The notes under the pieces: model-generated
Seen by the model: only the letters and a program-made list of their open reading frames with translations
What the model was told of the DNA's origin: nothing
Database searches by the model: none
Shown here: positions 6,916-64,000 of the stretch, piece by piece
Layout of the letters: each line of letters begins with the position of its first letter
Numbering within the stretch: the stretch's first letter is position 1
Translations under genes and position numbers: made by a program
DNA from: Xanthostigma xanthostigma
Taxonomy: Eukaryota; Arthropoda; Insecta; Raphidioptera; Raphidiidae
Direction: 5' to 3'
Length of the DNA: 64,000 nucleotides
NCBI GenBank assembly: GCA_963575645.1
Contig: OY754464.1
Span: 31,077,501 to 31,141,500 of the forward strand

Positions 6916-6919
6916 CTAA

Positions 6920-7078
6920 GTTTTTGACGTGATAACGTCTTATAAATTGATGAAACACCAGCTGCACGCACGAAAAAGTGTAACGTTCCATAACGTTCCG
7001 CCTGACCCTGTGCGTGTAAGCGATGTAATGTATTATTAAATATGATATTCGAGCGGAATACGTTATCACGTAAAACTA
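6920..7078. repeat. Small inverted-repeat element at satellite edge
   Basis: ACGTGATAACGT at 6927-6938 is matched by its exact reverse complement at 7060-7071, enclosing about 120 bp of more GC-rich sequence than the surroundings. It separates the 120-bp satellite from the 122-bp array and looks like a MITE or fragment of one. Target duplication not resolved. Confidence 0.5.
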
Positions 7079-16224: not shown

Positions 16225-17520
16225 TTCAAATAAATTCGATTGCTCAGACTATGTTGGTGTGTTCAATTTTCGCTTCATTTTATCACTCGTTAATTCATAT
16301 TTCATGCGTACAATACGTAAAGCGATTTAGTGAAAGACTGAAGTGCAAATTAATAAAGTTCATGGCAAAGCCTTTTGCTTGTATACTTATTTACGAGGAC
16401 TCACTGATAATACTTTAAGTTATAGAGGTCAACAAAATATTATTTTTAAGTTAACGAGAGCCAAAGCTCAAAATATTTCTAAGCTGTTCCCAGTATTACA
16501 GAATAAACATATCTATCAATTTGTTTTAGGCTTTGAGGGGAAGGGAATTCAAAAGTTACAAAGGTTATATACATAGCAAATATTATTTATCTACAACATC
16601 TGTGTAACTTGAACTTCTAATCTAGAAGTTCAAATTGTAGATCCAGATTAACCCTGGGAGATGCTGGTATTAATCAGAGCTAATATCACTAGGCAGATTG
16701 AGATCATCAACATCCAGGTTTAATCCTGATCAAAGTCCAATTTCTATTTTCAAATTATGAAAAAAAGAATTGGTACATTATAACTGATTGTAGACGAGAT
16801 CTTCGCGTGGCGTAAGGATCAAAATAAATCACAAAACTGACGTTAACTTTTGGTCCTCAATCCACACAAAGACTTTCTAAATTAAATAAGCCTTATTTTT
16901 TTTTGGTCCTAAGTAACACTTTTTGAGCTGAAACGTTTTACTACTACATTCTCTATGTGCAGCAATGACATAATATGAAGTATTGAGCTTCTTCGCCATG
17001 TTTTTATCCGCCTCATGGCAGATAAACTTTTTTCACAACTAGCTGAACTCATTGGAAGCGCTACTGCAACTTGTATGTTTTTGTACAAGTTAGGGCGAGA
17101 ATTCTTTTTGATATGATTTTTTTAAATTTTCAGCATTTACCGTCTGAAGCTGAAACATAAAATTTGAAGACGTTTTTATAATTATTTATAGACTATTCTC
17201 CGTTCTTCATATCTAATTTCAAAAACTCATCAATTCCTGAATTTATTGGCAGGCTTTAAAATGACGTTTCAGATTTAGGATTACATGGTTCACTACTAGT
17301 AGATATCGATCATTCTTTCTGTGCTTCTTGATCTCTTATTGCTATTATAATATATTTTTTTTATTATTAAATCGCACTTTTCTAGGAGGGCGTGACCCCT
17401 GCCTACCTATTGCCAACGATGATGATACATACCGCGATATATGCGTCGGAAGAATTAATATCTTCGCACAAACTTGTCTCGCTACCTTTTACCATTAACA
17501 ATTGAAAGAAGTTTGTGTTA
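16225..17520. other. AT-rich region without a recognised gene
   Basis: A 77-codon frame (16343-16576) has no recognisable content. AACTTCTAATCTAGAAGTT near 16611-16629 is a small hairpin. Otherwise nothing supportable. Confidence 0.35.
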
Positions 17521-36159: not shown

Positions 36160-36680
36160 ATTACTAGCAGCCCGGACTGACTTCGCCCCTCATTTGCAGA
36201 TTGTCTATCATGTTTAATTGGATAAGAATTGTTTCGCAAGTCTCGCCAAGAAAGTAAACCATAATTATTTCTTGCAAGCAATTTTTAAATCTGTGATATC
36301 TTCTAATATATTCATGTAGATAAGGACTAAAACCATGTTGATCAAAGTAACTTCGCAAGTAACTCATGCTTTTTGATCAAATAAATCAAATAAATAAAAA
36401 TGGTCTGTGGGTCAGCCTTAGACGAAAGACCATAGACATATGCTATCGCAGACTTTTCTGTAGATCTTTTTACGACCTACAATTCTGCAGTTCATTAATT
36501 TGATGTATCGCTTACGGTTTAGTCAGCGTAAGTCATATAACTGCCCTAAAACGCCTTTTTACGACTTGATGACAAAACTTCGAGATTTCTCTACGATCTA
36601 TATAGATAAACCTTCCGCAAGAAATTCTCTAAATAATGGTGGTAAAATTGCAATGATTTCGTCTTTTAATTGTCAGATCT
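36160..36680 (+). repeat. Dispersed repeat family E, uninterrupted copy
   Basis: Homologous to 40440-40840 continued at 59104-59205. Shared blocks: a TACTAGCAGCCCGGACT-type start, AGATTGTCTAT, GACATATGCTAT, GGTTTAGTCAGCGTAAG, CTTTTTACGACTTGAT, then AGATTTCTCT and AAATTCTCTAA.A. The giant foldback element interrupts the other copy at exactly the ATTTCTC site. The TACTAG..CCCGG.CTTCG start is typical of common insect non-LTR-derived repeats, but I cannot assign the family. Confidence 0.75.
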
Positions 36681-40439: not shown

Positions 40440-40840
40440 AGTTTATATAATAACTAGTGGCCCAGTCCGGCTTCGACGGAATTAGTAGATTGTCTATTAA
40501 ACATGTCATGTTTAATGAAATAAGGATTAGGCTGGTCAAAATAGCGTAATAATTTTGTTGACAGTAATTTTTAAGATGTTCATATAAGTGAAATGGTGTA
40601 AAGGTCAATTTTGATCTAAGGGTTAAAAATACTGTTGATCGAAATAGCTTCACAAATAATTTATTATTTTTGATGAAATTTTAAAAGACAAAAATGGTTA
40701 ATGTGGGTTATCCTTAGAAGACATATGCTATTCTGCAGAACTTAATGTTATGTATCTCTTATGGTTTATTAGTCAGCGTTAGCCATGTAAGCATTCAAAA
40801 GCGTCTTTTTACGACTTGATTACAAACACAGAAATTTCTC
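40440..40840 (+). repeat. Dispersed repeat family E, left half of interrupted copy
   Basis: Same orientation as 36160-36680. It stops at AAATTTCTC (40832-40840), where the giant foldback element begins, and resumes at 59104. Confidence 0.75.
40832..40840 (+). repeat. 9-bp target-site duplication, left (AAATTTCTC)
   Basis: Identical to 59104-59112 on the other side of the 18.3-kb inverted-repeat element. A single AGATTTCTC occurs at the equivalent place in the uninterrupted relative near 36583-36591. Confidence 0.93.
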
Positions 40841-41660
40841 GGCTCCGTGAAACCAGCCGCAACTTTGTTAGCCGCATGGACCAAAATGGGTGGGCTGGTT
40901 TGTGCTTCGTTTGTGCCCTTTCCTGCTTTAAAAATTTTCGTTCCTGCTTTTAGCGTTTCCGAGAAAATCGAAAATTTTATAACTGCGGCCAGGATCACGC
41001 CAGCCGCAACTTTTTTGATTTTGTAATTTTTTTACTTGCGGCTGGTTTGTGCTTCGTTTGTGCCCTTTCCTGCTCCAAAAAAAATCGTTCCTGCTTTTCG
41101 CGTTTCCGAGCAAATCGAAGAAATTTTAGCTGCGGCCAGGTTCACGCTAGCCGCAACTTTTTGGAATTTGTACATTTTTTACTTGCGGCTGGTTTGTGCT
41201 TCGTTTGTGCCTTTTCCTGCTTAAAAAAATTTCGTTCCTGCTTTTCCCGTTCTCGAGAAAATCGAAAAAGAAAATTCGGTAAACGTGAAGTTAGCCGCAA
41301 CTTTGTTAGCCGCACGGACCAAAATAGGTGGGATGGATTGAGCTTCGTTTGTGCCTTTTCCTGCTTAAAAAATTTTCGTTCCTGCTTTACGAGTTTCCGA
41401 GAAAAATACGAAAAAAGAAAATGCAATTCTACACTGACCGGCACAAAAAACGCAACACCTAAAATGATGACCAGTCTAGAATTGCAATAACTTTTAAACG
41501 TATCGCTCGATTTGAATGAGTTTTTTTTTATTTGAAAGGTCTATGCTTTGTCAATATTTCTGTAAGTGATCTGCTCATTTTGGCGCTCTTCCATTTCGGC
41601 TGTAAAGAATAACGCTAATGCTCGTTTTCCTCATACACATTGAAATCTGTGTTTTTGCAT
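40841..41660 (+). repeat. Left terminal domain of foldback element
   Basis: The first ~590 bp contain four imperfect 137-147-bp modules, each with GCTTCGTTTGTGCC (near 40914, 41051, 41198 and 41342), TTTCCTGCTT.AAAA, TCGTTCCTGCTTT and a GTTTCCGAGAAAATCGA-type block. Then comes a non-repeated stretch starting TACACTGACCGGCACAAAA (near 41431) leading into the satellite. Mirrored at 58300-59103 with only a few mismatches. A 147-codon frame (41047-41490) exists in both arms, but it is a repetitive Cys/Phe/Arg-rich translation of the modules and I do not regard it as a gene. Confidence 0.9.
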
Positions 41661-44600
41661 ATTCTCTACTTGCAGCTCGAAAAACTGTTTAGAACTGCTA
41701 AAGTATTATGATGCGGCTGATTAGTGCCTACTATGGAAAGATTCCTGCCTTCATAATATGTTCGGAAAATTTAACCCTTTCTAGAGAAAATCGACATATT
41801 CTAATATATCTGTGTTTTTACGTATTCTGGACGTGCGGCTCGAAAAACTGTTTGGAACTGCTGAAGTATTATGACGCGGCTGATGAGTGCCTACTATGGA
41901 AAGATTCCTGCCTCCATAATATGTTCGGAAAATTTAACCCTTTCTAGAGAAAATCGACATATTCTAATATATCTATGTTTTTACGTATTCTGGACGTGCG
42001 GCTCGAGAAACTGTTCGGAACTGCAGAAGTATTATGACGCGGCTGATTAGTGCCTACTATAAAAAAATTCCTGCCTTCATAATATGTTCGGAAAATTTAA
42101 CCCTTTCTAGAGAAAACCGACATATTCTAATATATCTATGTTTTTACTTATTCTGGACGTGCGGCTCGAGAAACTGTTTGGAACTGCTGAAGTATTATGA
42201 CGTGGCTGATTAGTGCCCACTATGGAAAGATTCCTGCCTTCATAATATGTTCGGAAAATTTAACCCTTTCTAGAGAAAATCGACATATTCTAATATATCT
42301 ATGTTTTTACGTATTCTGGACGTGCGGCTCGAGAAACTGTTTGGAACTGCTGAAGTATTATGACGCGGCTGATTAGTGCCTACTATGGAAAGATTCCTGC
42401 CTCCATAATATGTTCGAAAATATTTAACCCTTTTTAGAGAAAATCGATATATTCTAATATATCTGTGTTTTTACGTATTCTGGATGTGCGGCTCGACAAA
42501 CTGTTTGGAACTGCTGATGCATTATGACGCGGCTGATTAGTGCCTACTATGGAAAGATTCCTGCCTCCATAATATGTTCGGAATATTTAACCCTTTATAG
42601 AGAAAATCGACATATTCTAATATATCTGTGTTTTTACTTATTCTGGACGTGCGGCTCGAGAAACTGTTTGGAACTGCTGAAGTATTAAAACGTGGCTGAT
42701 TAGTGCCTACTATGGAAAGATTCCTGCCTTCATAATATGTTCAGAAAATTTAACCCTTTCTAGAGAAAATCGACATCTTCTAATATATCTGTGTTTTTAC
42801 TTATTCTGGACGTGCGGCTCGAGAAACTGTTTGGAACTGCTGAAGTATTATGACGTGGCTGATTAGTGCCCACTATGGAAAGATTCCTGCCTTCATAATA
42901 TGTTCGGAAAATTTAACCCTTTCTAGAGAAAATCGACATATTCTAATATATCTGTGTTTTTACGTATTCTGGACGTGCGGCTCGAGAAACTGTTTAGAAA
43001 TTCTGAAGTATTATGACGCGGCTGATTAGTGCCTACTATGGAAAGATTCCTGCCTCCATAATATGTTCGGAATATTTAACCCTTTATAGAGAAAATCGAC
43101 ATATTCTAATATATCTGTGTTTTTACTTATTCTGGACGTGCGGCTCGAGAAACTGTTTGGAACTGCTGAAGTATTATGACGTGGCTGATTAGTGCCCACT
43201 ATGGAAAGATTCCTGCCTCCATAATATGTTCGGAATATTTAACCCTTTCTGGAGAAAATCGACATATTCTAATATATCTATGCTTTTACGTATTCTGGAC
43301 GTGCGGCTCGAGAAACTGTTTGGAACTGCTGATGTATTATGACGCGGCTGATTAGTGCCTACTATAGAAAGATTCCTGCCTCCATAATATGTTCGGAATA
43401 TTTAACCCTTTCTAGAGAAAATCGACATATTCTAATATATCTGTGTTTTTACGTATTCTGGATGTGCGGCTCGACAAACTGTTTGGAACTGCTGAAGTAT
43501 TATGACGTGACTGATTAGTGCCTACTATGGAAAGATTCCTGCCTTCATAATATGTTCGGAAAATTTAACCCTTTCTGGAGAAAATCGACATATTCTAATA
43601 TATCTATGTTTTTACGTATTCTGGACGTGCGGCTCGAAAAACTGTTTTGAACTGCTGAAGTATTATGACGTGGCTGATTAGTGCCCACTATGGAAAGATT
43701 CCTGCCTTCATAATATGTTCGGAAAATTTAACCCTTTCTAGAGAAAATCGACATATTCTAATATATCTATGTTTTTACGTATTATGGACGTGCGGCTCGA
43801 GAAACTGTTTGGAACTGCTGAAGTATTATGACGCGGCTGATTAGTGCCTACTATGGAAAGATTCCTGCCTCCATAATATGTTCGGAATATTTAACCCTTT
43901 CTGGAGAAAATCGACATATTCTAATATATCTGTGTTTTTACTTATTCTGGACGTGCGGCTCGAGAAACTGTTTGGAACTGCTGATGTATTATGACGCGGC
44001 TGATTAGTGCCTACTATGGAAAGATTCCTGCCTCCATAATATGTTCGGAATATTTAACCCTTTATAGAGAAAATCGACATATTCTAATATATCTGTGTTT
44101 TTACTTATTCTGGACGTGCGGCTCGAGAAACTGTTTGGAACTGCTGAAGTATTATGACGTGACTGATTAGTGCCTACTATGGAAAGATTCCTGCCTTCAT
44201 AATATGTTCGGAAAATTTAACCCTTTCTGGAGAAAATCGACATATTCTAATATATCTATGTTTTTACGTATTCTGGACGTGCGGCTCGAAAAACTGTTTT
44301 GAACTGCTGAAGTATTATGACGTGGCTGATTAGTGCCCACTATGGAAAGATTCCTGCCTCCATAATATGTTCGGAATATTTAACCCTTTCTGGAGAAAAT
44401 CGACATATTCTAATATATCTGTGTTTTTACTTATTCTGGACGTGCGGCTCGAGAAACTGTTTGGAACTGCTGATGTATTATGACGTGGCTGATTAGTGCC
44501 TACAATGGAAAGATTCCTGCCTTCATAATATGTTCGGAAAATTTAACCCTTTCTGGAGAAAATCGACATATTCTAATATATCTATGTTTTTACGTATTCT

Positions 44601-47600
44601 GGACGTGCGGCTCGAAAAACTGTTTGGAACTGCTTAAGTATTATGATGCGGATGATTAGTGCCTACTATGGAAAGATTCCTGCCTTCATAATATGTTCGG
44701 AAAATTTAACCCTTTCTAGAGAAAATCGACATATTTTAATATATCTGTGTTTTTACGTATTCTGGACGTGCGGCTCGAGAAACTGTTTGGAACTGCTGAA
44801 GTATTATGACGCGGCTGATTAGTGCCTACTATGGAAAGATTCCTGCCTCCATAATATGTTCGGAATATTTAACCCTTTATAGAGAAAATCGACATATTCT
44901 AATATATCTGTGTTTTTACGTATTCTGGACGTGCGGCTCGAGAAAGTGTTTAGAACTGCTGAAGTATTATGACGTGGCTGATTAGTGCCCACTATGGAAA
45001 GATTCCTGCCTTCATAATATGTTCGGAAAATTTAACCCTTTCTAGAGAAAATCGACATATTCTAATATATCTGTGTTTTTACGTATTCTGGATGTGCGGC
45101 TCGACAAACTGTTTGGAACTGCTGAAATATTATGACGCGGCTGATTAGTGCCTACTATGGAAAGATTCCTGCCTTCATAATATGTTCGGAAAATTTAACC
45201 CTTTCTGGAGAAAATCGACATATTCTAATATATCTATGTTTTTACGTATTCTGGACGTGCGGCTCGAGAAACTGTTTGGAACTGCTGAAGTATTATGACG
45301 CGGCTGATTAGTGCCTACTATGGAAAGATTCCTGCCTTCATAATATGTTCGGAATTTTTAACCCTTTCTAAAGAAAATCAACATATTCTAATATATCTGT
45401 GTTTTTACTTATTCTGGACGTGCGGCTCGAGAAACTGTTTGGAACTGCTGAAGTATTATGACGCGGCTGATTAGTGCCTACTATGGAAAGATTCCTGCCT
45501 TCATAATATGTTCGGAAAATTTACACCCTTTTTGGAGAAAATCGACATATTCTAATATATCTATGTTTTTACGTATTCTGGACGTGCGGCTCGAAAAACT
45601 GTTTGGAACTGCTTAAGTATTATGATGCGGATGATTAGTGCCTACTATGGAAAGATTCCTGCCTCCATAATATGTTCGGAATATTTAACCCTTTCTAAAG
45701 AAAATCAACATATTCTAATATATCTGTGTTTTTACTTATTCTGGACGTGCGGCTCGAGAAACTGTTTGGAACTGCTGATGTATTATGACGCGGCTGGTTA
45801 GTGCCCACTATGGAAAGATTCCTGCCTCCATAATATGTTCGGAATATTTAACCCTTTCTGGAGAAAATCGACATATTCTAATATATCTGTGTTTTTACTT
45901 ATTCTGGACGTGCGGCTCGAGAAACTGTTTGGAACTGCTGATGTATTATGACGCAGCTGATTAGTGCCTACTATGGAAAGATTCCTGCCTCCATAATATG
46001 TTCGGAATATTTAACCCTTTCTAGAGAAAATCGACATATTCTAATATATCTGTGTTTATACGTATTCTGGATGTGCGGCTCGACAAACTGTTTGGAACTG
46101 CTAAAGTATTATGACGTGGCTGATTAGTGCCTACTATGGAAAGATTCCTGCCTTCATAATATGTTCGGAAAATTTAACCCTTTCTGGAGAAAATCGACAT
46201 ATTCTAATATATCTATGTTTTTACGTATTCTGGACGTGCGGCTCGAGAAACTGTTTGGAACTGCTGAAGTATTATGACGCGGCTGATTAGTGCGTACTAT
46301 GGAAAGATTCCTGCCTTCATAATATGTTCGGAAAATTTAACCCTTTTTGGAGAAAATCGACATATTCTAATATATCTATGTTTTTACGTATTCTGGACGT
46401 GCGGCTCGAAAAACTGTTTGGAACTGCTTAAGTATTATGATGCGGATGATTAGTGCCTACTATGGAAAGATTCCTGCCTCCATAATATGTTCGGAATATT
46501 TAACCCTTTCTAAAGAAAATCAACATATTCTAATATATCTGTGTTTTTACTTATTCTGGACGTGCGGCTCGAGAAACTGTTTGGAACTGCTGAAGTATTA
46601 TGACGCGGCTGATTAGTGCCTACTATGGAAAGATTCCTGCCTTCATAATATGTTCGGAAAATTTAACCCTTTTTGGAGAAAATCGACATATTCTAATATA
46701 TCTATGTTTTTACGTATTCTGGACGTGCGGCTCGAAAAACTGTTTGGAACTGCTTAAGTATTATGATGCGGATGATTAGTGCCTACTATGGAAAGATTCC
46801 TGCCTCCATAATATGTTCGGAATATTTAACCCTTTCTAAAGAAAATCAACATATTCTAATATATCTGTGTTTTTACTTATTCTGGACGTGCGGCTCGAGA
46901 AACTGTTTGGAACTGCTGATGTATTATGACGCGGCTGGTTAGTGCCCACTATGGAAAGATTCCTGCCTCCATAATATGTTCGGAATATTTAACCCTTTCT
47001 GGAGAAAATCGACATATTCTAATATATCTGTGTTTTTACTTATTCTGGACGTGCGGCTCGAGAAACTGTTTGGAACTGCTGATGTATTATGACGCGGCTG
47101 ATTAGTGCCTACTATGGAAAGATTCCTGCCTCCATAATATGTTCGGAATATTTAACCCTTTCTAGAGAAAATCGACATATTCTAATATATCTGTGTTTAT
47201 ACGTATTCTGGATGTGCGGCTCGACAAACTGTTTGGAACTGCTAAAGTATTATGACGTGGCTGATTAGTGCCTACTATGGAAAGATTCCTGCCTTCATAA
47301 TATGTTCGGAAAATTTAACCCTTTCTGGAGAAAATCGACATATTCTAATATATCTATGTTTTTACGTATATTGGACGTGCGGCTCGAAAAACTGTTTGGA
47401 ACTGCTGAAGTATTATGATGCGGATGATTAGTGCCTACTATGGAAAGATTCCTGCCTCCATAATATGTTCGGAATATTTAACCCTTTCTAAAGAAAATCA
47501 ACATATTCTAATATATCTGTGTTTTTACTTATTCTGGACGTGCGGCTCGAGAAACTGTTTGGAACTGCTGATGTATTATGACGCGGCTGATTAGTGCCTA

Positions 47601-48800
47601 CTATGGAAAGATTCCTGCCTCCATAATATGTTCGGAATATTTAACCCTTTATAGAGAAAATCGACATATTCTAATATATCTGTGTTTTTACTTATTCTGG
47701 ACGTGCGGCTCGAGAAACTGTTTGGAACTGCTGAAGTATTATAACGTGGCTGATTAGTGCCTACTATGGAAAGATTCCTGCCTTCATAATATGTTCGGAA
47801 AATTAAACCCTTTCTAGAGAAAATCGACATATTCTAATATATCTGTGTTTTTACGTATTCTGGACGTGCGGCTCGAGAAACTGTTTGGAACTGCTGAAGT
47901 ATTATGACGTGGCTGATTAGTGCCCACTATGGAAAGATTCCTGCCTCCATAATATGTTCGGAATATTTAACCCTTTCTGGAGAAAATCGACATATTCTAA
48001 TATATCTATGCTTTTACGTATTCTGGACGTGCGGCTCGAGAAACTGTTTGGAACTGCTGATGTATTATGACGCGGCTGATTAGTGCCTACTATAGAAAGA
48101 TTCCTGCCTCCATAATATGTTCGGAATATTTAACCCTTTATAGAGAAAATCGACATATTCTAATATATCTGTGTTTTTACTTATTCTGGACGTGCGGCTC
48201 GAGAAACTGTTTGGAACTGCTGAAGTATTATGACGCGGCTGATTAGTGCCAACTATGGAAAGATTCCTGCCTTCATAATATGTTCGGAAAATTTAACCCT
48301 TTCTGGAGAAAATCGACATATTCTAATATATCTATGTTTTTACGTATTCTGGACGTGCGGCTCGAAAAACTGTTTGGAACTGCTGAAGTATTATGATGCG
48401 GATGATTAGTGCCTACTATGGAAAGATTCCTGCCTCCATAATATGTTCGGAATATTTAACCCTTTCTGGAGAAAATCGACATATTCTAATATATCTGTGT
48501 TTTTACTTATTCTGGACGTGCGGCTCGAGAAACTGTTTGGAACTGCTGATGTATTATGACGCGGCTGATTAGTGCCTACTATGGAAAGATTCCTGCCTCC
48601 ATAATATGTTCGGAATATTTAACCCTTTATAGAGAAAATCGACATATTCTAATATATCTGTGTTTTTACTTATTCTGGACGTGCGGCTCGAGAAACTGTT
48701 TGGAACTGCTGAAGTATTATGACGTGGTTGATTAGTGCCCACTATGGAAAGATTCCTGCCTTCATAATAATATGTTCGGAAAATTTTATCCTTCCCAGAG
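41660..48800 (+). repeat. 163-bp satellite array, left arm (~44 copies)
   Basis: Unit 163 bp (occasionally 164), recognisable by GCGGCTGATTAGTGCCTACT, GGAAAGATTCCTGCC, ATAATATGTTCGGAA, TTTAACCCTTTCT, GAGAAAATCGACATATTCTA, TATATCT.TGTTTTTAC and GGACGTGCGGCTCGAGAAAC. The unit is self-homologous to its neighbours at about 95%. Higher-order structure is present: the block around 45600-46250 recurs around 46741-47390, offset 1141 bp = seven units, sharing rare variants such as TGTGTTTATACG. Confidence 0.97.
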
Positions 48801-48819
48801 AAAATCAACATATTCTCAA

Positions 48820-50185
48820 AAATCACTTTTGACTGATAAATAATAATAATTTGTTTACAGAAAGTAATGAAATCCCATCAAAAACATAAGCGTAAAAATT
48901 CAATGCAAAAGAGTTCTAAAAAGGTGCTAAGTTTTCAATTGGCAAGTTTTCACACAAATAAACATGAAGTTTAGGTATAAATCATAATAAACGAACACTT
49001 GCTTGGTGAAAATTTGACACCTTTTTAGATCTCAATTCCTTATTTATAGATTATTAAACTTGGCTCCCGTTTTCACATTTATGTTTTTGAAGGGATTCAT
49101 TTTACAAAAATGATCGACTTATACTAAAAAGATTACTTTGCGAGCGTACTGACACATTTAACTTTTAAAGTCATTTGAATAATTAAGATACGAAATTAAG
49201 TGAAAAAGCAAAAACAATCATTTAAGGGGGTACTCGCTCGAATTTTCGGAAAAAATCATACATTTTTGAACGAGTGTCAAAGAAAGAGGAAGGCAGATAG
49301 AGAATTGATTTTTTTTAAATTTTATTTACATATCCTTCTACCATATGCCCATTTTTTTTGACGCGCGCGCTCCAAGCGCTTGCGCACAGCTGTCTGTATC
49401 TCAGGAAACAATGAAAAAACGGCGGGCCCGATCAGCGCTTTCCAGAACATCCTAGAACAACAAAAAAAATGTATTCTTAAAGTAGAAGAGTCCAACTTCG
49501 CGTTGACGGATGGAAATTCTGATAAAAAAAATTTCGCGATTCAGTAACCGTTTTTTCCTCAAATTTTTCCGAGGTTTTTTTCGTAGATGCGCCATTTCTC
49601 TAAAATCGATTTTTTTTTAATTTCCATCCGTCAATGCGAAGTTTGACTCTTCTACTTTAAGAATAATTTTTTTTTTTTGTTCTAGGATGTTCTCGAAAGC
49701 GCTGATCGAACCCGCCTTTTTTAATGGTCTCCTGAGATACAGACAGCTGTGCGCATGCGCGTGGGGCGCGCGCGTCAAAAAAAATGAACATATGGTAGAA
49801 GGATATTATGTAAAATGAAGATTATGTAAAATAAAAAAAATCAATTTTCTATCTGCCTCCCTCTTTCTTTGAGACCCGTTCAAAAATGTATGATTTTTTC
49901 CGAAAATTCGAGCGAGTACCCCCTTAAATTAAAAATTTTAATTTTTAATTAACCCAAGAAAACAACAAGATAGGGGTAGATATTTCGAATTAATACTCTG
50001 AAAGTTGTATGGTCAAAAAATATCTGTATTTCTTAATGACTTAGTTATAAAAATTAATTTACCTCTAAATTTATAGGTTTTTTTTTTTTTTTTTGGCAAT
50101 TATTTGTAAGAAAATACATAGGTACTTATGGCTCCGTGCTATTACGAAACATTCCGTATATTTAAAGAATGCACTAGGTCTACTA
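48820..50185. other. Extra segment present only in the left arm
   Basis: It lies between the left satellite array and the left inner domain and has no counterpart on the right, where the satellite abuts the inner domain near 51720. It includes a small foldback (48915-49029; TCTAAAAAGGTG and its near-complement), the TTAA-flanked element at 49226-49923, and a T16-18 run near 50080. Confidence 0.75.
49226..49923. mobile_element. TTAA-flanked foldback MITE nested in giant element
   Basis: Ends GGGGGTACTCGCTCGAATTT and its exact complement, flanked by TTAA on both sides (49222-49225 and 49924-49927). The arms are about 320 bp, imperfect, around a ~50-bp centre; they include GACGCGCGCG and CAGACAGCTGTGCGCA-type blocks. 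TTAA duplication is used by the piggyBac and Kolobok superfamilies; the G-rich end does not let me choose firmly. No coding capacity. Confidence 0.9.
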
Positions 50186-51720
50186 CATTTCCGCAAAAAA
50201 TTAAGGGAGCAAAAACATTTTTCGAATTTTTAGTGATTTTTCAGAAAGCTGTATCTCAGTTAAAATTAGTCGCATTGAGATTTTAAAAAAAGCATTTTAA
50301 AGCGCTGAATGTCTAGTTTTCAGATTTCTTAGCTTAAAATTTTTAGGAGCGACAGTCATCGCGAAATTGTAAGAAAGAACACAAAAAATTTTTTTTTTTT
50401 ATTTTTTGCCTTTTTTTCTCGGTCCACGGGCTTGGAAAATTTTTTTTCACAAAAATTATGATGTGGACTTGATAGCCTGTTCATTCAGCTTTAATTTCTT
50501 TTTTTAAATTTTTCTCTACGTTAATTTGACCCGGAGATATTCGACTACGAATACAAAAGCATCCTTTTGATTTTAACCATCGATATCTCAGCAACTAATG
50601 ATCAGACAGAAAATTGACGGGCAGTTTCAAAATCTCGAATAAATTTCCTACAAGGCTATGTAGTGTTCTTGGAAGAAAAAAATTTTCTTTCATCCTCGAT
50701 ATTAACTTGAAAAAAGTGAAAAAAAGTGACTTTTTGACTTGTTTTGCTAAGTTGACCGCATATTTGCTAATATTGGTGGCAAGTCTAATGCTTGTACGAA
50801 TTTTTACACCTCATTGTACCCCCAAGAGCTCCGTAAATCGACAGATCGAACTATCGATCGGTTTTTCCGGACCGCTTAATCAAAATTTCAGAAAAATTTA
50901 AAGGAGCAAAATTTACAATTCTGAACACCCTGTAATGTTCGTAAAAATGAATTTGATTTTTTTTTCAATTCTTTCACAATTGGGCATCTTTTGCTTATTG
51001 AATTTGCTCCTTTAAATTTTTCTGAAATTTTGATTAAGCGGTCCGGAAAAACCGTTCGATAGATCGATCTACCGATTTACGGAGCTCTTGGGGGTACATC
51101 GAGGTGTAAAAATTCGTACAAGCATTAGACTTTCCACCGATATTAGCAAAGATGAGGTCGACTTAGCAAAACAAGTCAAAAAGTCACTTTTTTTCTCTTT
51201 TTTCAAGTTGATATCGAGGATGAAAGAAAATTTTCTTCTTCCAAGAACACTACATAACCTTGTAGGAAAATTATTCGAGATTTTGAAACTGCCCGTCAAT
51301 TTTCTGTCTGATCATTAGTTGCTGAGATATCGATGGTTACAGTCAAAAAAAGGCTTTTGTAGTCGAATATCTCCGGGTCAAAAATTAACGTAGAGAAAAA
51401 TTTAAAAAAAGAATATAAAGCTGATGAACAGGCCATATCATAATTTTTGAGTAAAAAATTTTTCAAAGCCCGTGGACCGAGAAAAAAAACGCAAAAAATG
51501 AAAAAAAAATTTGTTTCGTGTTCTTTCTTAGAATTTTGCGATGACTGTCACTCCTAAAAATTTTAAGCCAAAAATTCTAAAAACTAGACATTCAGCGCTT
51601 TAAAATGCTTTTTTTAAAACCTCGATACGACAAATTTTAACTGAGATACAGCATTCTGAAAAATCACTAAAAATTCAAAAAATTTTTTGCTCTCCTATTT
51701 TTTTGCAGAAATTTATAATA
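50185..51720. repeat. Inner 1.5-kb palindrome of foldback element
   Basis: Arms of about 720 bp (50185-50909 and 51002-51720) with a ~92-bp loop. Matched blocks include GGCAGTTTCAAAATCTCGAA, TTTTTCCGGACCGCTTAATC and GGAGCTCTTGGGGGTAC-type sequence, plus their complements. A frame of 95 codons (50614-50901, +) and its mirror of 76 codons (51069-51299, -) are related only because the arms are; 51088-51318 (+) is their antisense. I do not call a gene. Confidence 0.93.
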
Positions 51721-54700
51721 ATGCAGTAGTTTAAACAGTTTCTCGAGCCCACAAGTCGAGAATATGTAAAAACACAGATTTGTTAGAATATGTCGATTTT
51801 CACTAAAAAGGGTTAAACTTTCCGAATATATTAGAAAGGCAGAAATCTTTCCATATAAGGCACTAATCAGCCGCATCATAATACTTCAGCAGTTCTAAAC
51901 AGTTTTTCGAGCCGCAAGTAGAGAATACGCAAAAACACAGATTTGTGAGAATATGTCGATTTTCTCTGGGTAGGATTAAATTTTCCGAACATATTATGAA
52001 GGCAGGAATCTTTCCATAGAAGGCATTAATCAGCCGCGTCATAATACATCAGCAGTTCCAAACAGTTTCTCGAGCCGCACGTCCAGAATAAGTAAAAACA
52101 CAGATATATTAGAATATGTCGATTTTCTCCAGAAAGGGTTAAATATTCCGAACATATTATGGAGGCAGGAATCTTTCCATAGTAGGCACTAATCAGCCAC
52201 GTCATAATACTTCAGCAGTTCCAAACAGTTTCTCGAGCCGCACGTCCAGAATAAGTAAAAACACAGATATATTAGAATATGTCGATTTTCTCTATAAAGG
52301 GTTAAATATTCCGAACATATTATGGAGGCAGGAATCTTCCATAGTAGGCACTAATCAGCCGCGTCATAATGCATCAGCAGTTCCAAACAGTTTCTCGAGC
52401 CGCACGTCCAGAATAAGTAAAAACACAGATATATTAGAATATGTCGATTTTCTCTATAAAGGGTTAAATATTCCGAACATATTATGGAGGCAGGAATCTT
52501 TCCATAGTAGGCACTAATCAGCCGCGTCATAATACTTCAGCAGTTCCAAACAGTTTGTCGAGCCGCACATCCAGAATACGTAAAAACACAGATATATTAG
52601 AATATGTCGATTTTCTCTAGAAAGGGTTAAATTTTCCGAACATATTATGAAGGCAGGAATCTTTCCATAGTAGGCACTAATCAGCCACGTTATAATACTT
52701 CAGCAGTTCCAAACAGTTTCTCGAGCCGCACGTCCAGAATAAGTAAAAACAGAGATATATTAGAATATGTTGATTTTCTTTAGAAAGGGTTAAATATTCC
52801 GAACATATTATGGAGGCAGGAATCTTTCCATAGTAGGCACTAATCATCCGCATCATAATACTTAAGCAGTTCCAAACAGTTTTTCGAGCCGCACGTCCAG
52901 AATACGTAAAAACATAGATATATTAGAATATGTCGATTTTCTCCAAAAAGGGTTAAATTTTCCGAACATATTATGAAGGCAGGAATCTTTCCATAGTAGG
53001 CACTAATCAGCCGCGTCATAATACTTCAGCAGTTCCAAACAGTTTCTCGAGCCGCACGTCCAGAATAAGTAAAAACACAGATATATTAGAATATGTTGAT
53101 TTTCTTTAGAAAGGGTTAAATATTCCGAACATATTATGGAGGCAGGAATCTTTCCATAGTAGGCACTAATCATCCGCATCATAATACTTAAGCAGTTCCA
53201 AACAGTTTTTCGAGCCGCACGTCCAGAATACGTAAAAACATAGATATATTAGAATATGTCGATTTTCTCCAAAAAGGGTTAAATTTTCCGAACATATTAT
53301 GAAGGTAGGAATCTTTCCATAGTAGGCACTAATCAGCCGCGTCATAATACTTCAGCAGTTCCAAACAGTTTCTCGAGCCGCACGTCCAGAATACGTAAAA
53401 ACATAGATATATTAGAATATGTCGATTTTCTCCAGAAAGGGTTTAATTTTCCGAACATATTATGAAGGCAGGAATCTTTCCATAGTAGGCACTAATCAGC
53501 CGCGTCATAATATTTCAGCAGTTCCAAACAGTTTGTCGAGCCGCACATCCAGAATACGTAAAAACACAGATATATTAGAATATGTCGATTTTCTCTAGAA
53601 AGGGTTAAATTTTCCGAACATATTATGAAGGCAGGAATCTTTCCATAGTGGGCACTAATCAGCCACGTCATAATACTTCAGCAGTTCTAAACACTTTCTC
53701 GAGCCGCACGTCCAGAATACGTAAAAACACAGATATATTAGAATATGTCGATTTTCTCTATAAAGGGTTAAATATTCCGATCATATTATGGAGGCAGGAA
53801 TTTTTCCATAGTAGGCACTAATCAGCCGCGTCATAATACTTCAGCAGTTCCAAACAGTTTCTCGAGCCGCACGTCCAGAATACGTAAAAACACAGATAAT
53901 ATATTAAAATATGTCGATTTTCTCTAGAAAGGGTTAAATTTTCCGAACATATTATGAAGGCAGGAATCTTTCCATAGTAGGCACTAATCATCCGCATCAT
54001 AATACTTAAGCAGTTCCAAACAGTTTTTCGAGCCGCACGTCCAGAATACGTAAAAACATAGATATATTAGAATATGTCGATTTTCTCCAGAAAGGGTTAA
54101 ATTTTCCGAACATATTATGAAGGCAGGAATCTTTCCATAGTAGGCACTAATCAGCCACGTCATAATACTTCAGCAGTTCCAAACAGTTTGTCGAGCCGCA
54201 CATCCAGAATACGTAAAAACACAGATATATTAGAATATGTCGATTTTCTCTAGAAAGGGTTAAATATTCCGAACATATTATGGAGGCAGGAATCTTTCCA
54301 TAGTAGGCACTAATCAGCCGCGTCATAATACTTCAGCAGTTCCAAACAGTTTCTCGAGCCGCACGTCCAGAATACGTAAAAACATAGATATATTAGAATA
54401 TGTCGATTTTCTCTAGAAAGGGTTAAATTTTCCGAACATATTATGAAGGCAGGAATCTTTCCATAGTGAGCACTAATCAGCCACGTCATAATACTTCAGC
54501 AGTTCCAAACAGTTTCTCGAGCCGCACGTCCAGAATAAGTAAAAACACAGATATATTAGAATATGTCGATTTTCTCTATAAAGGGTTAAATATTCCGAAC
54601 ATATTATGGAGGCAGGAATCTTTCCATAGTAGGCACTAATCAGCCGCGTCATAATACTTCAGCAGTTCCAAACAGTTTCTCGAGCCGCACGTCCAGAATA

Positions 54701-57700
54701 CGTAAAAACACAGATATATTAAAATATGTCGATTTTCTCTAGAAAGGGTTAAATTTTCCGAACATATTATGAAGGCAGGAATCTTTCCATAGTGGGCACT
54801 AATCAGCCACGTCATAATACTTCAGCAGTTCCAAACAGTTTCTCGAGCCGCACGTTCAGAATACGTAAAAACACAGATATATTAGAATATGTCGATTTTC
54901 TCTAGAAAGGGTTAAATTTTCCGAACATATTATGAAGGCAGGAATCTTTCCATAGTAGGCACTAATCAGCCACGTTATAATACTTCAGCAGTTCCAAACA
55001 GTTTCTCGAGCCGCACGTCCAGAATAAGTAAAAACACAGATATATTAGAATATGTCGATTTTCTCTATAAAGGGTTAAATATTCCGAACATATTATGGAG
55101 GCAGGAATCTTCCATAGTAGGCACTAATCAGCCGCGTCATAATGCATCAGCAGTTCCAAACAGTTTCTCGAGCCGCACGTCCAGAATACGTAAAAACATA
55201 GATATATTAGAATATGTCGATTTTCTCTAGAAAGGGTTAAATTTTCCGAACATATTATAAAGGCAGGAATCTTTCCATAGTGGGCACTAATCAGCCACGT
55301 CATAATACTTCAGCAGTTCCAAACAGTTTCTCGAGCCGCACGTTCAGAATACGTAAAAACACAGATATATTAGAATATGTCGATTTTCTCTAGAAAGGGT
55401 TAAATATTCCGAACATATTATGGAGGCAGGAATCTTTCCATAGTAGGCACTAATCAGCCACGTTATAATACTTCAGCAGTTCCAAACAGTTTTTCGAGCC
55501 GCACGTCCAGAATAAGTAAAAACACAGATATATTAGAATATGTCGATTTTCTCTATAAAGGGTTAAATATTCCGAATATATTATGGAGGCAGGAATCTTT
55601 CCATAGTAGGCACTAATTAGCCGCGTCATAATACATCAGGAGTTCCAAACAGTTTCTCGAGCCGCACGTCCAAAATAAGTAAAAACACAGATATATTAGA
55701 ATATGTCGATTTTCTTTAGAAAGGGTTAAATATTCCGAACATATTATGGAGGCAGGAATCTTTCCATAGTAGGCACTAATCATCCGCATCATAATACTTC
55801 AGCAGTTCCAAACAGTTTTTCGAGCCGCACGTCCAGAATACGTAAAAACATAGATATATTAGAATATGTCGATTTTCTCTAGAAAGGGTTATATTTACTG
55901 AACATATTATGAAGGCAGGAATCTTTCCATAGTAGGCACTAATCAGCCACGTTATAATACTTCAGCAGTTCCAAACAGTTTCTCGAGCCGCACGTCCAGA
56001 ATAAGTAAAAACACAGATATATTAGAATATGTCGATTTTCTCTATAAAGGGTTAAATATTCCGAACATATTATGGAGGCAGGAATCTTCCATAGTAGGCA
56101 CTAATCAGCCGCGTCATAATGCATCAGCAGTTCCAAACAGTTTCTCGAGCCGCACGTCCAGAATAAGTAAAAACACAGATATATTAGAATATGTCGATTT
56201 TCTTTAGAAAGGGTTAAATATTCCGAACATATTATGGAGGCAGGAATCGTTCCATAGTAGGCACTAATCAGCCGCGTCATAATACTTCAGCAGTTCCAAA
56301 CAGTTTCTCGAGCCGCACGTCCAGAATACGTAAAAACATAGATATATTAGAATATGTCGATTTTCTCTAGAAAGGGTTAAATTTTCCGAACATATTATAA
56401 AGGCAGGAATCTTTCCATAGTGGGCACTAATCAGCCACGTCATAATACTTCAGCAGTTCCAAACAGTTTCTCGAGCCGCACGTTCAGAATACGTAAAAAC
56501 ACAGATATATTAGAATATGTCGATTTTCTCTAGAAAGGGTTAAATTTTCCGAACATATTATGAAGGCAGGAATCTTTTCATAGTAGGCACTAATCAGCCA
56601 CGTTATAATACTTCAGCAGTTCCAAACAGTTTCTCGAGCCGCACGTCCAGAATAAGTAAAAACACAGATATATTAGAATATGTCGATTTTCTCTATAAAG
56701 GGTTAAATATTCCGAACATATTATGGAGGCAGGAATCTTTCCATAGTAGGCACTAATCAGCCACGTTATAATACTTCAGCAGTTCCAAACAGTTTTTCGA
56801 GCCGCACGTCCAGAATAAGTAAAAACACAGATATATTAGAATATGTCGATTTTCTCTATAAAGGGTTAAATATTCCGAATATATTATGGAGGCAGGAATC
56901 TTTCCATAGTAGGCACTAATCATCCGCATCATAATACTTCAGCAGTTCCAAACAGTTTTTCGAGCCGCACGTCCAGAATACGTAAAAACATAGATATATT
57001 AGAATATGTCGATTTTCTCCAGAAAGGGTTAAATTTTCCGAACATATTATGAAGGCAGGAATCTTTCCATAGTAGGCACTAATCAGCCACGTCATAATAC
57101 TTCAGCAGTTCCAAACAGTTTGTCGAGCCGCACATCCAGAATACGTAAAAACACAGATATATTAGAATATGTCGATTTTCTCTAGAAAGGGTTAAATATT
57201 CCGAACATATTATGGAGGCAGGAATCTTTCCATAGTAGGCACTAATCAGCCGCGTCATAATACTTCAGCAGTTCCAAACAGTTTCTCGAGCCGCACGTCC
57301 AGAATACGTAAAAACATAGATATATTAGAATATGTCGATTTTCTCTAGAAAGGGTTAAATTTTCTGAACATATTATGAAGGCAGGAATCTTTCTATAGTA
57401 GGCACTAATCAGCCACGTCATAATACTTCAGCAGTTCCAAACAGTTTCTCGAGCCGCACGTCCAGAATAAGTAAAAACATAGATATATTAGAATATGTCG
57501 GTTTTCTCTAGAAAGGGTTAAATTTTCCGAACATATTATGAAGGCAGGAATCTTTCCATAGTAGGCACTAATCAGCCGCGTCATAATACTTCTGCAGTTC
57601 CAAACAGTTTCTCGAGCCGCACGTCCAGAATACGTAAAAACATAGATATATTAGAATATGTCGATTTTCTCTAGAAAGGGTTAAATTTTCCAAACATATT

Positions 57701-58300
57701 ATGGAGGCAGGAATCTTTCCATAGTAGGCACTCATCAGCCGCGTCATAATACTTCAGCAGTTCCAAACAGTTTTTCGAGCCGCACGTCCAGAATACGTAA
57801 AAACACAGATATATTAGAATATGTCGATTTTCTCTAGAAAGGGTTAAATTTTCCGAACATATTATGAAGGCAGGAATCTTTTCATAGTAGGCACTAATCA
57901 GCCGCGTCATAATACTTCAGCAGTTCCAAACAGTTTCTCGAGCCGCACGTCCAGAATAAGTAAAAACACAGATATATTAGAATATGTCGATTTTCTCTAG
58001 AAATGGTTAAATTTTCCGAACATATTATGAAGGCAGGAATCTTTCCATGGTAGGCACTAATCAGCCGCGTCATAATACTTCAGCAGTTCCAAACAGTTTT
58101 TCGAGCCGCACGTCCAGACTACGTAAAAACACAGATATATTAGAATATGTCAATTTTCTCTAGAAAGGGTTAAATATTCCGAACATATAATGAAGGCAGG
58201 AAACTTTCCATAGTAGGCACTAATCAGCCGCATCATAATACTTTAGCAGTTCTAAACAGTTTTTCGAGCTGCAAGTAGAGAATATGCAAAAACACAGATT
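51720..58300 (-). repeat. 163-bp satellite array, right arm (~40 copies)
   Basis: The same 163-bp unit in inverted orientation. The two innermost units (51720-52020) are the most divergent, like the last unit of the left array. Rare variants appear in the mirror order of the left arm: CTGATGAG, CTGCAGAAG and GAGAAAACCGAC, each displaced by two units. Confidence 0.97.
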
Positions 58301-59103
58301 TCAATGTGTATGGGGAAAACGAGCATTAGCGTTATTCTTTACAGCCGAAATGGAAGAGCGCCAAAATGAGCAGATCACTTACAGAAATATTGACAAAGCA
58401 TAGACCTTTCAAATAAAAAAAAACTCATTCAAATCGAGCGATACGTTTAAAAGTTATTGCAATTCTAAACTGGTCATCATTTTAGGTGTTGCGTTTTTTG
58501 TGCCGGTCAGTGTAGAATTGCATTTTCTTTTTTCGTATTTTTCTCGGAAACTCGTAAAGCAGGAACGAAAATTTTTTAAGCAGGAAAAGGCACAAACGAA
58601 GCTCAATCCATCCCACCTATTTTGGTCCGTGCGGCTAACAAAGTTGCGGCTAACTTCACGCTTACCGAATTTTCTTTTTCGATTTTCTCGAGAACGGGAA
58701 AAGCAGGAACGAAATTTTTTTAAGCAGGAAAAGGCACAAACGAAGCACAAACCAGCCGCAAGTAAAAAATGTACAAATTCCAAAAAGTTGCGGCTAGCGT
58801 GAACCTGGCCGCAGCTAAAATTTCTTCGATTTTCTCGGAAACGCGAAAAGCAGGAACGAATTTTTTTGGAGCAGGAAAGGGCACAAACGAAGCACAAACC
58901 AGCCGCAAGTAAAAAAATTACAAAATCAAAAAAGTTGCGGCTGGCGTGATCCTGGCCGCAGTTATAAAATTTTCGATTTTCTCGGAAACGCTAAAAGCAG
59001 GAACGAAAATTTTTAAAGCAGGAAAGGGCACAAACGAAGCACAAACCAGCCCACCCATTTTGGTCCATGCGGCTAACAAAGTTGCGGCTGGTTTCACGGA
59101 GCC
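58300..59103 (-). repeat. Right terminal domain of foldback element
   Basis: Mirror image of 40841-41660 with only a few substitutions. Examples: GGTAAGCGTG here against GGTAAACGTG on the left, and CCAGTTTAGAATT against CCAGTCTAGAATT. Arm identity here is therefore about 99% by eye, implying recent insertion or ongoing gene conversion. Confidence 0.9.
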
Positions 59104-59112
59104 AAATTTCTC
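59104..59112 (+). repeat. 9-bp target-site duplication, right (AAATTTCTC)
   Basis: Identical to 40832-40840. The following TGCTATATTT and later AAATTCTCTAATAGATG resume the interrupted family E repeat. Confidence 0.93.
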
Positions 59113-60315: not shown

Positions 60316-62965
60316 TAGTTTGTATAATATTATGACGCATATTATGCTATTGGAATTGATCGGATTATAAAATCTCGACTTTAACTCATGCTGACTAATT
60401 TGGCACCGTTCTAGTTATAAACTCATTACTCAGTTGCTAGAATTAGTAACATGACAGGTTTTATGAACATTATTATTTTGCAATATTATCACGTTGCCTA
60501 TGTACAATGGCTCGACACGTTGAATTGCATCCATAAATGCATTTACGTTGTAACAATTCAATTGTGCAAAGATGACGTCGCTCACGTTTTACTCTTTCTA
60601 TCTAAAGTCTATTTTATATGGAAATAGGTTCGTAATAAAACACAATATTTTTATCATAAAATTAAATTTATTTTGGTGCAAACATATCTATTTCATAAAA
60701 ATCAAAGCATAACTATTATCCATTCTTCGAATTTTATTGTACATTTAGTATTCCTAATTTTAGAGAAAACTTCTTGCTTTTTTTAAGTGTTACTACTCAA
60801 AGGGTGAAACTACAATGCTCTTACTATTCTGCATGTCTGTCGTATCCTCTAGCTCTCAAACTATAACTGTTGACCGTCTCAGACAAATTTTATTTTTGTT
60901 GAACTAATAAAGAGTGCTTTATTTTTTATATTATTATTAAGACTACATCGTACAATATTTTTTAAGGATTGCGACTTTATTATAGATATTAGACCTGTCG
61001 ATTATTTATGGAAAATAATTTTGTTCCAAGGCGTCGTGGCACATCAACTAAACCCTATTTTTTAATATATTCTGAATTATTTGTGGCTTTGTTTCGTAAA
61101 CAGCTCGTTGGATTTTTTTCTTAAGTAGGTACCATAATTGCTTGTGGATGATTCGAGTTACAATTACCATCCACATTTCCTCATAAAACTAGTCCAACCG
61201 CGTCAAATTACAGCTGCGCCCTGACTAATAAACGTGTCCAAAACGGCTTTTAATACGGTTATTGAACTTAGTGAGAACATTTCTGTTACTTCACGGCAGC
61301 CATTTGAATGAAATTGTTTCACATCAATAATAATAATTAATCGGAAGGTGTAGATTTACATCTTTTTATAAAACTATAATCATTTAAAAAACTGAGCGGT
61401 GTCCTTTCAATAGTAATTTCCCAAAGAAACCAAAGAATGGCCCACCTTTGTTTAAGCAGGTGAGATGCACTTAGATTGTTAAAAAAATCGATTTTATTTT
61501 TCTTTGGCATTTTTTTGAAGTATGATGTTTAGAAAATAATCTCTGAAAATTTTAAGTCAATCCGATGAATAGTTTTGAGATATCATACAATTACCCCATG
61601 GCAGGAATCTTCCACGTCAGCAGAAGCCCTATTGTGTGGCCCAGGAATTGATGATTCGATGTAAGAAATTATTTAATTATTTCTATACATAAATCAAGTG
61701 TAAAGTTGAAAAAATCTTCCAGAAATTTTCAAAAATTTATAACTCAAAAACTATAAACTTTAGGAAATATAAAACTGTATATACATCGAAATACTAATGT
61801 GTTTTTCTCCAAACTATATGAAAACTTAAAAAATCAAATTCAAAAACCACATGATGAATTTTAATGAAATTTTTACAGCTTATTGATATTATTAAAAATT
61901 AGGCCTTGATCGAAGGATTTTCATTTTTGCTCAAAATTTTGATTTCTTTAACAATAAACTAATTATTTTGTTAATTAAAAAAAAATCTTCAATAGGCTAG
62001 ATTGATTAATTATTAAACTAATGATTTTTATTTGTTTTATTGATTTTGGATGATCCAGTGAGATTTTCTGGTTGCCACCGCGGAAGGGGGGGGGGGCGAC
62101 AAAGATGGCGATTTTTTTATAAATAAATAATATTTATTTTTTTTTACTTTGTGGAATTGAAGTTGAAACATGACATAAAAACTCTGTATAATCAGTTTTA
62201 TAAAATAAACTTCATTATTATGAAAAAAAAATATAAAAATACTCCGTTTTTTACGCATCTGACTGCATCTCACTCCTTGAAGATTTTTAGTAGCATTAAA
62301 AATGGTGTAAAAAGCATAAATTTCAAAATTAACCATGATAGGTGTTTCTGAACAGGCCTCATAGACAAACAATTTTTGTAAATTTGTTTTTACTTCAAAA
62401 TGACGACACGGAGGCCTGTAAAATGCCAAATTTTGGTGAAATATTATTTTCCATTTGACATAAAAACATGGCATGTAATAGATATGTAACTTTGACGATT
62501 ATAACTAGAAGTAAGTTTTACCAAAATTGATCCAGTGGTTTCTGAGATAAACGCAATTCATGAGATATCATACCTGCTAGTACGCAAACATCTCTGTACA
62601 AACAAAGTTGGCGCCTGCGTCAATCTTTTGTTTTGTCACTTTTTGTAACAGGTTAGTAAATAAATGAGTGGTGACATAGCGCACAGTTAAATTATTTTTA
62701 ACGTACTCGTAAATAAAAATACATAGTGAACATCATCATTAATAATTTGAGGCTAGTAAAAAGTTCAATAGAGATTAATAAACAAGTTACTCTTGCCTGA
62801 CGAACACCGAATCTGGATCTTGCCACACGGTAATTTGATAGCAATTTTTTTCCATATAAAAAGGACTTAAGGAAGAATGACACTATTTCATCGCTTTCGC
62901 CGATCGCTGCATGTTTTTTTCCTCGTACACTTGTTCATGTGGAGAAACTTGAAAGGAGTGCTTTC
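60316..62965. other. AT-rich region, no supported gene
   Basis: Phrases such as GATATCATAC with GTTTCTGAGAT (61560-61600 and 62530-62575) look like retroelement untranslated sequence. A G11 run is at 62086-62096. The 145-codon minus-strand frame at 62037-62474 has no recognisable domain and contains a low-complexity SPSLSPPPPS stretch from the G-run; I leave it uncalled. Confidence 0.35.
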
Positions 62966-62970
62966 TGATA

Positions 62971-63742
62971 GGCCCCACTCACGATCAAACTTCATGCCAG
63001 AGTTCAGTGTTCAGTGAAGTTGGACAGATTAATCGAAAGACTGACTGGCACCACACACAGTTCATGCAAACTGCTCAGTTTTTTAAATTTTTTGTGTTCA
63101 GTTTGGTTCAGTTGTTGGCATACACTCGTCGAGTATAGATACATAAGATATATTATATTATATACACACTATAATATTATACTATAGAGTATAGTTCATT
63201 AATAAGAACTAAATGAGTAATTTAAATGGTGAGGATTGGCTGTTTAGAGCTATGGGATTGTATTTAAAACAGAGAAATAAGAAAAAAAAAGAAGAATATG
63301 GATGAAAAATTGGTTAGAAATGCGTGATTCAAGAAGTCATGTTTATTTGATTAATGAATTACATCTTGAGCCGCTTGATTGCAATAATTATTTACGAATG
63401 AATGAATTAACTTACAATTATTTACGGGAATTAGTTACCCTATTTATTAAGAACCAGGACACAAATATGTGAAAATCTATTTCTGCACAAGAAAGGCAGC
63501 AACATTGAGATTTTTGGCTTCTGGTTGTACAAAACATAGAACTCCAAAAACTGAACTGAAAAACACCCACACACACAACAGTTTACTTGAACACTGAACA
63601 CTGAAGTCGTTCAAAAATCAAGATGCATTTGATGAGTTCATGCTTGACTTCAGTGTTTATTTGTCCCACACACTATCATGCTTCACTGAACTATAAGTTT
63701 GAACACTGAACTGTTGCATGAAGTGTGATCGTGAGTGGGGCC
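62971..63742 (+). mobile_element. Deleted PIF/Harbinger element
   Basis: Ends GGCCCCACTCACGATCA.ACTTCATGC match in inverted orientation, with TA on both outer sides (62969-62970 and 63743-63744). GTTCAGTG motifs crowd both subterminal regions. Inside, from about 63290, a frame reads MKNWLEMRDSRSHVYLINEL, then NNYLRMNELTYNYLRELVTL and FIKNQDTNM, the N-terminal region of PIF/Harbinger transposases. It is interrupted by frameshifts and stops, ends near LRFLASGCT, and lacks the whole catalytic domain. The element is a non-autonomous internal-deletion derivative. The 3-bp TWA duplication typical of the superfamily is not clear. Confidence 0.85.
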
Positions 63743-63744
63743 TA

Positions 63745-64000
63745 TGAGGTATAGTACAGAGTACCTACAACGCGAGACTTCATTCAAAAGCTCAGTCGCA
63801 CAAAAGTTATTTTGGTTCGTTAGCGTTCACAGGGTTGTGCAAGTCACACAATACGAGTCAGTCTCGTTTTCCTTTCAACTGAAACTTACAGACGTACTCA
63901 CTACAATAATATTCTACGAGGGTTACTAAACAAAATCGCTGTTACTTACCGGAAATATTTTTTTCTTTATATAACAAGATAAAACACCTTGTTTGTATAA
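63745..64000. other. Right window edge, no recognised feature
   Basis: Sequence after the Harbinger element is slightly less AT-rich until about 63940; no gene is supported. Confidence 0.35.

Follow-up and report, generated by a model that had tools for sequence, protein, structure and literature searches.

An 18-kb non-autonomous foldback transposon with satellite-filled inverted arms in Xanthostigma xanthostigma

We examined 64,000 nucleotides of the Xanthostigma xanthostigma genome (assembly GCA_963575645.1, contig OY754464.1, positions 31,077,501 to 31,141,500 of the forward strand; hereafter the window, in whose numbering all coordinates are given), in which an element of 18,263 bp occupies positions 40841-59103. 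The element starts with GGCTCCGTG and finishes with CACGGAGCC, such that its ends are inverted, and it is bordered by two exact copies of a 9-bp target-site duplication, AAATTTCTC (40832-40840 and 59104-59112). Self-comparison of the window revealed two inverted arms, a left arm of 7,976 bp (40841-48816) and a right arm of 7,389 bp (51715-59103), which make up 84% of the element and enclose a core of 2,898 bp (48817-51714); the corresponding minus-strand alignment pairs 40830-48231 with 59111-51715 at 95.4% identity. An earlier sequence-only reading of this DNA had proposed a foldback insertion with complementary ends, AAATTTCTC on both outer sides and arms composed of tandem repeats, all of which the present analysis bears out. 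The two arms are also inverted copies of each other as it had claimed, but the lengths it gave (about 10.1 and 8.1 kb) are untenable because they leave no room for the 2.9-kb core. Based on long inverted arms accounting for most of the element (95% identical over 7.4 kb), the internal tandem repetition of these arms (44.0 and 40.4 copies of a 163-bp unit), and a target duplication of about 9 bp present at both ends and matched by an empty site, we conclude that the element is a true foldback transposon, non-autonomous and of extreme size.

Each arm consists of an outer, or flanking, domain followed by a satellite array. The outer domains, located at 40841-41644 on the forward strand (starting with GGCTCCGTG) and, as an inverted copy, at 58300-59103 on the reverse strand, are both 804 bp long and align without gaps, with mismatches at 5 of 804 positions (0.6%). 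Both carry subterminal tandem repeats with a 147-bp unit, which Tandem Repeats Finder (TRF) delimits as 2.6 copies on the left (40893-41269, forward strand) and 2.6 copies on the right (58676-59051, reverse strand), where a weaker second TRF row assigns 3.6 copies to 58529-59051. Inward of the outer domains lie the satellite arrays, comprising 44.0 copies of the 163-bp unit on the left (TRF; 41645-48816, forward strand) and 40.4 inverted copies on the right (TRF; 51715-58299, reverse strand). The satellite is homogeneous (94% matches, TRF), and of the steps from one monomer to the next, 41 of 43 in the left array and 36 of 40 in the right measure exactly 163 bp.

Several lines of evidence point to insertion by transposition. 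On the forward strand of the window, to which the count was confined, AAATTTCTC occurs only twice, at 40832 and 59104, and the terminal GGCTCCGTG at 40841 is answered by its complement at 59095. A chance 9-bp match at the base composition of the flanks has a probability of ~1.7e-5. Of 200,000 random pairs of 9-mers taken within the window's first 40 kb, 16 were identical, a figure inflated by another satellite located there, and a duplication arising by chance is thus very unlikely. Furthermore, we identified a diverged paralog of both flanks at 36314-36632 on the forward strand, which lacks the insertion and has the target only once, with 8 of its 9 bases conserved. The left flank (40608-40840) aligns with 36314-36591 through the target and inclusive of it, its two best blocks agreeing at 76% (113 columns) and 73% (108 columns). 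Just past the target, similarity to the right flank resumes, with gaps, at a score matched by 0 of 1,000 mononucleotide shuffles. Judged from these alignments, the paralogous locus is a related empty site and provides independent evidence for insertion. Taken together, the duplication, the near-identical ends and the related empty site lend good support to a foldback insertion with a 9-bp duplication.

Comparison of the satellite with the outer domains suggests where it came from. Three left 147-bp units, the third of which extends beyond the array limits drawn by TRF, aligned to the 163-bp consensus with local scores of 74, 42 and 55, each exceeding all 500 of its dinucleotide shuffles (maxima of 61, 40 and 47, respectively). 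The whole outer domain scored 91 against the consensus on the forward strand (maximum of 64 in 100 shuffles), and the score of 39 on the reverse strand amounts to nothing. On the strength of this similarity we take the 163-bp unit and the 147-bp outer-domain repeats to be homologous, which makes the transposon's own end repeats the probable source of the satellite; in the simplest reading, the satellite is probably an amplified and diverged form of the 147-bp subterminal repeats. No copy of the 163-bp satellite was found elsewhere in the window. Counting both orientations, the element contains 140 instances of the motif GCGGCT, 8 of them in the left outer domain, against 2 in the remainder of the window; given that the 163-bp consensus holds this motif twice, the array explains most of the excess, which is not independent evidence.

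The monomers of both arms, compared after omission of the innermost unit of each (leaving 43 of 44 on the left and 40 of 41 on the right), form one mixed pool. Monomers differ on average by 8.86 positions within arms and 8.89 between them, and the fraction of monomers with a nearest neighbour from their own arm (0.508, compared to 0.496 under shuffled labels) was reached in 419 of 1,000 shuffles. Identical pairs number nine between arms, eight within the left arm and five within the right. Also identified were blocks of monomers, numbered within the left (L) and right (R) arms, that recur in the same order, including L15-25/R23-34 (11 aligned monomers, 0-6 differences each), L06-12/R20-26 (7 monomers, 1-4 differences each) and L29-32/R31-34, the tightest, with 2, 0, 0 and 0 differences, which is as similar between arms as are the outer domains (0.6%). 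Reversed-order blocks between arms comprise at most 3 monomers, compared to 11, 7 and 4 in the same order. The monomer-order score was 23, against a maximum of 17 and a mean of 8.0 in 500 permutations, an excess that is moderate; rotation of the right array was uninformative as an order control, since it keeps the diagonals. Together, the mixed monomer pool and the blocks in shared order suggest copying or conversion between arms, from which we infer that one arm may have been copied from, or converted by, the other, with unequal exchange then shuffling the copies. A five-monomer duplication was also observed inside the left array (L24-28 and L31-35).

These findings make it highly probable that the locus arose through a single insertion of a cut-and-paste foldback transposon that is non-autonomous, whose satellite derives from its own end repeats, and whose arms have been kept alike. 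Under such an explanation, a transposase supplied in trans would recognise the outer domain, and perhaps also the GCGGCT-bearing repeats, and the duplication suggests that the element would have inserted with a 9-bp stagger. The 147-bp subterminal repeats of the element would amplify and diverge into the 163-bp satellite, the arrays would grow and turn over by unequal exchange, and the arms would stay alike either through copying of one arm from the other or through gene conversion between them. A more far-reaching proposal, in which the 18-kb form is itself mobile, carries approximately 14 kb of satellite and plants it already arranged as a palindrome, with its ~84 163-bp units representing putative subterminal transposase-binding sites and its arms held similar through continual conversion, appears rather doubtful to us.

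A number of observations weigh against the favoured explanation. No transposase was detected in the core, such that mobilisation in trans is something we infer, and the rest of the 64-kb window yielded no further family member. Exact-pattern searches, for the end in viral contigs and for the satellite in prokaryotic and viral contigs, returned 0 matches, a result uninformative on the host genome. Divergence at the empty site amounts to 24-27% in the two best blocks of the left flank, its alignment requires gaps to the left and to the right of the target, and the margin of the second 147-bp unit over its shuffles is thin (42 against a maximum of 40). Finally, reversed monomer order scores 15, which is well over the permutation mean of 8.0 and under the maximum of 17; local similarity within the arrays therefore explains part of the order signal, and this reversed-order score stems partly from a short ABA pattern.

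An alternative course of events is that what inserted was a small foldback element carrying few repeats, and that its arms expanded later in place, the 18-kb form never having moved. Satellite arrays commonly alter their copy number through unequal exchange, and both the L24-28/L31-35 duplication in the left array and the single copy known in the window agree with such a history, which we regard as a serious contender with somewhat less than an even chance. The same-order blocks common to both arms (0-6 differences per monomer; 2, 0, 0 and 0 in L29-32/R31-34) argue against it, as they imply that expansion of the two arms was not entirely independent. Expansion in place differs from the favoured explanation in timing only, which the latter leaves open. 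Capture of a host satellite by the transposon, instead of an origin from its own end repeats, would account for a unit that is satellite-sized and homogeneous (94% matches, TRF), but is unlikely given the kinship of the 163-bp unit with the 147-bp outer-domain repeats (three of three units above all 500 shuffles) and given that no copy of it was found elsewhere in the window.

Long palindromes are also a known artefact of chimeric reads, which raises the prospect of an inverted copy falsely joined during library preparation or assembly. Were the palindrome an artefact, one would expect its arms to be identical and its flanks repeated, whereas the arms described here are unlike in both copy number (44.0 and 40.4) and sequence, the outer flanks differ between sides, and a 9-bp duplication and an empty site are present; we therefore consider an artefact highly improbable. 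To the same degree we discount an origin without transposition, through segmental inverted duplication or ectopic recombination: although internally repetitive foldback terminal inverted repeats (TIRs) seem to be hot spots of such recombination (PMC3169594), the exact terminal ends, 9-bp duplication and empty site form the signature of a transposase-mediated insertion. Since a related empty site exists without the element, transposition is by far the best reading when set against an assembly or recombination product.

With regard to class membership, the Foldback element (FB/NOF) of Drosophila melanogaster resembles the Xanthostigma element in its long, internally repetitive inverted arms and 9-bp duplication, but its arms are smaller and have much shorter repeat units. 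At 9 bp, the target duplication falls within the 8-11 bp of Mutator (including Phantom and FB/NOF) and fits other superfamilies too; Merlin target duplications, for example, are 8-9 bp. No transposase of the Mutator-like element (MULE) type was detected by Pfam in 10 core frames, as in any non-autonomous copy. Given that foldback-like TIRs have been found with different transposases (PMC3169594), the architecture does not decide the superfamily, and the 9-bp duplication fits Mutator, Rehavkus and others.

As set by their published descriptions, the closest architectures are those of Tetris and Rehavkus-1_TC. Tetris of Drosophila virilis is likewise non-autonomous and runs from an outer flanking domain through a tandem-repeat domain to a variable middle, with a flanking domain of up to 866 bp (804 bp in the Xanthostigma element) and duplications of 8-10 bp (9 bp here) (PMC4079207). 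The TIR-220 unit of Tetris has a 37-bp stretch in common with the flanking domain, and the Tetris repeats have been amplified to satellite, which is the same pattern as the homology between the 163-bp and 147-bp repeats described above (PMC4079207). Conversely, the Tetris TIRs described reach at most 1,735 bp with ~220-bp units, compared to 7.4-8.0 kb and 163-bp units here, and include an inner domain, of which no counterpart was found in the 18-kb element, the two being compared by description only (PMC4079207). Fibre fluorescence in situ hybridisation (fibre-FISH) has shown long arrays bounded by two Tetris flanking domains, and assembly arrays contain up to 66 TIR-220 copies (PMC4079207). 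Rehavkus-1_TC of Tribolium castaneum, 9.5 kb in length, carries a 164-bp satellite (TCsat23) in its inverted termini, mostly as five and eight monomers, a unit size close to the 163 bp found here, again by description only (PMC10218199). The 9-bp duplication agrees with the value tabulated for the Rehavkus group (PMC6446971, Table 1). The Rehavkus minisatellite is described for the 3' side only in the group (PMC6446971) and for both ends in Rehavkus-1_TC (PMC10218199), and the satellite lies at both ends in the Xanthostigma element. Rehavkus TIRs measure 26-400 bp in the same Table 1, which covers few elements and whose TIR values may exclude satellite, whereas the present arms span 7.4-8.0 kb and the outer domain alone 804 bp (PMC6446971). 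The group also possesses a PHD-finger transposase, and none was detected in the Xanthostigma element (PMC6446971). An assignment to Rehavkus is countered by the TIR lengths and one-sided minisatellite described for the group (PMC6446971).

Further likenesses were noted with two other groups. Tm1 elements of Meloidogyne feature foldback-like tandem-repeat TIRs, a 9-bp duplication and paralogous loci that either carry or lack the element, and one listed copy has a nested 878-bp inverted repeat; they differ in their ~14-bp repeats, sizes of <0.5 to ~2.3 kb and known Phantom-type transposase (PMC3169594). Galileo of Drosophila has long TIRs containing tandem repeats, of ~210 bp in one subfamily, such repeats hold secondary binding sites for the transposase, and two-TIR copies without transposase occur, but it belongs to the P superfamily, generates 7-bp duplications and has TIRs of at most ~1.26 kb in D. 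mojavensis (PMC3573991, PMC3688188). Membership in the P superfamily with Galileo was rejected for the Xanthostigma element on the basis of its 9-bp, as opposed to 7-bp, duplication.

The sequence-only reading had also raised the possibility of an extreme and undescribed member of its class, which may hold for size but not for architecture, as the latter has been described for Tetris (PMC4079207) and in part for Rehavkus-1_TC (PMC10218199). In a literature search covering few subscription papers, and within the extracts consulted, we found no foldback element with sequence-resolved arms of 7.4-8.0 kb. An arthropod-wide survey lists complete MULEs of up to 9,972 bp with TIRs of up to 1,193 bp, complete denoting copies with a transposase only (PMC13359780). 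The arms are longer than the foldback TIRs published in these sources for Tetris (1,735 bp) and Galileo of D. mojavensis (~1.26 kb), a contrast tempered by the Tetris fibre-FISH, which also points to long arrays (PMC4079207). With 66-copy arrays and long fibre-FISH arrays published for Tetris, a giant satellite-filled foldback is not new as an idea, and the Xanthostigma element represents an unusually large example of an element type already known, one able to seed satellite DNA. It nonetheless provides, resolved to the base from end to end, an intermediate form linking transposons with subterminal repeats to satellite arrays, with insertion scar and empty site both inside one window. Satellite growth inside foldback arms thereby becomes testable through monomer genealogy, and a coupling of array turnover between two inverted arms is suggested. 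The inverted arms are also likely to be hot spots for rearrangement.

No protein encoded by the element itself was detected. The longest stop-to-stop frame wholly within the core (48817-51714) encodes 99 amino acids (aa), and a 102-aa frame straddles the left core border. A Pfam scan of the 10 wholly internal frames of at least 60 aa, which left out two frames straddling the core borders, detected no domain above cut-off and no transposase; two sub-threshold matches (E 0.032 and 0.043) were taken as chance. A protein search with a 178-aa open frame of the outer domain yielded 0 of 772 candidates at E 0.01 or better, which is the expectation for non-coding DNA, and Rfam (gathering thresholds) and tRNA scans of the whole window returned 0 matches each. 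Self-comparison of the core identified two palindromes. The first (49220-49929, 82% similar to its own complement) has TTAA at both ends with GGGGG/CCCCC immediately inside, and looks like a small inverted-repeat transposon nested in the core. The second, of 1.5 kb (50184-51715, 88% similar to its own complement), abuts the right satellite arm, and no clear target duplication was recognised for it. Approximately 50 bp ahead of this second palindrome, an internal GGCTCCGTG (50130-50138) matches the terminal nine bases of the element. It was rejected as the end of a nested second copy, as core self-comparison shows no such copy; beyond the nine bases, no outer-domain similarity by eye and no matching duplication were seen around 50130, and this is probably a chance occurrence.

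Outside the element, the window contains several other repeats. Broken Tc/mariner-like transposase fragments are located at 11616-12070, of which a 90-aa fragment (11616-11885) has no Pfam match and no solved structure; it has 1,765 protein matches, and among the best 120 of these the best named ones are from arthropods (Belonocnema, Trichonephila, Leptinotarsa, Caligus) and many are unnamed. Because elements of this type can pass from one species to another, these matches give no more than a hint of an arthropod host. A fragment of a hAT dimerisation domain (PF05699, E 1.1e-5) lies at 16912-17121, and an inverted-repeat element with ends CTATCG.../...CGATAG and arms ~70% alike at 8327-9136. 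At 62965-63748, a short inverted repeat (49 bp, 92%) surrounds an open frame without a Pfam match, which by eye we take to recall a Harbinger-type transposase. A second satellite, with a 120-bp unit (GTGACGTCAC... ATGGCGGAC) and 95-96% matches, forms a 4.4-kb array at 2567-6924. The sequence ahead of it (~2425-2566) is ~75-79% similar to 123-bp repeats past its other end (7112-7650) in the same orientation, and the array and the similar repeats bordering it may constitute one composite element.

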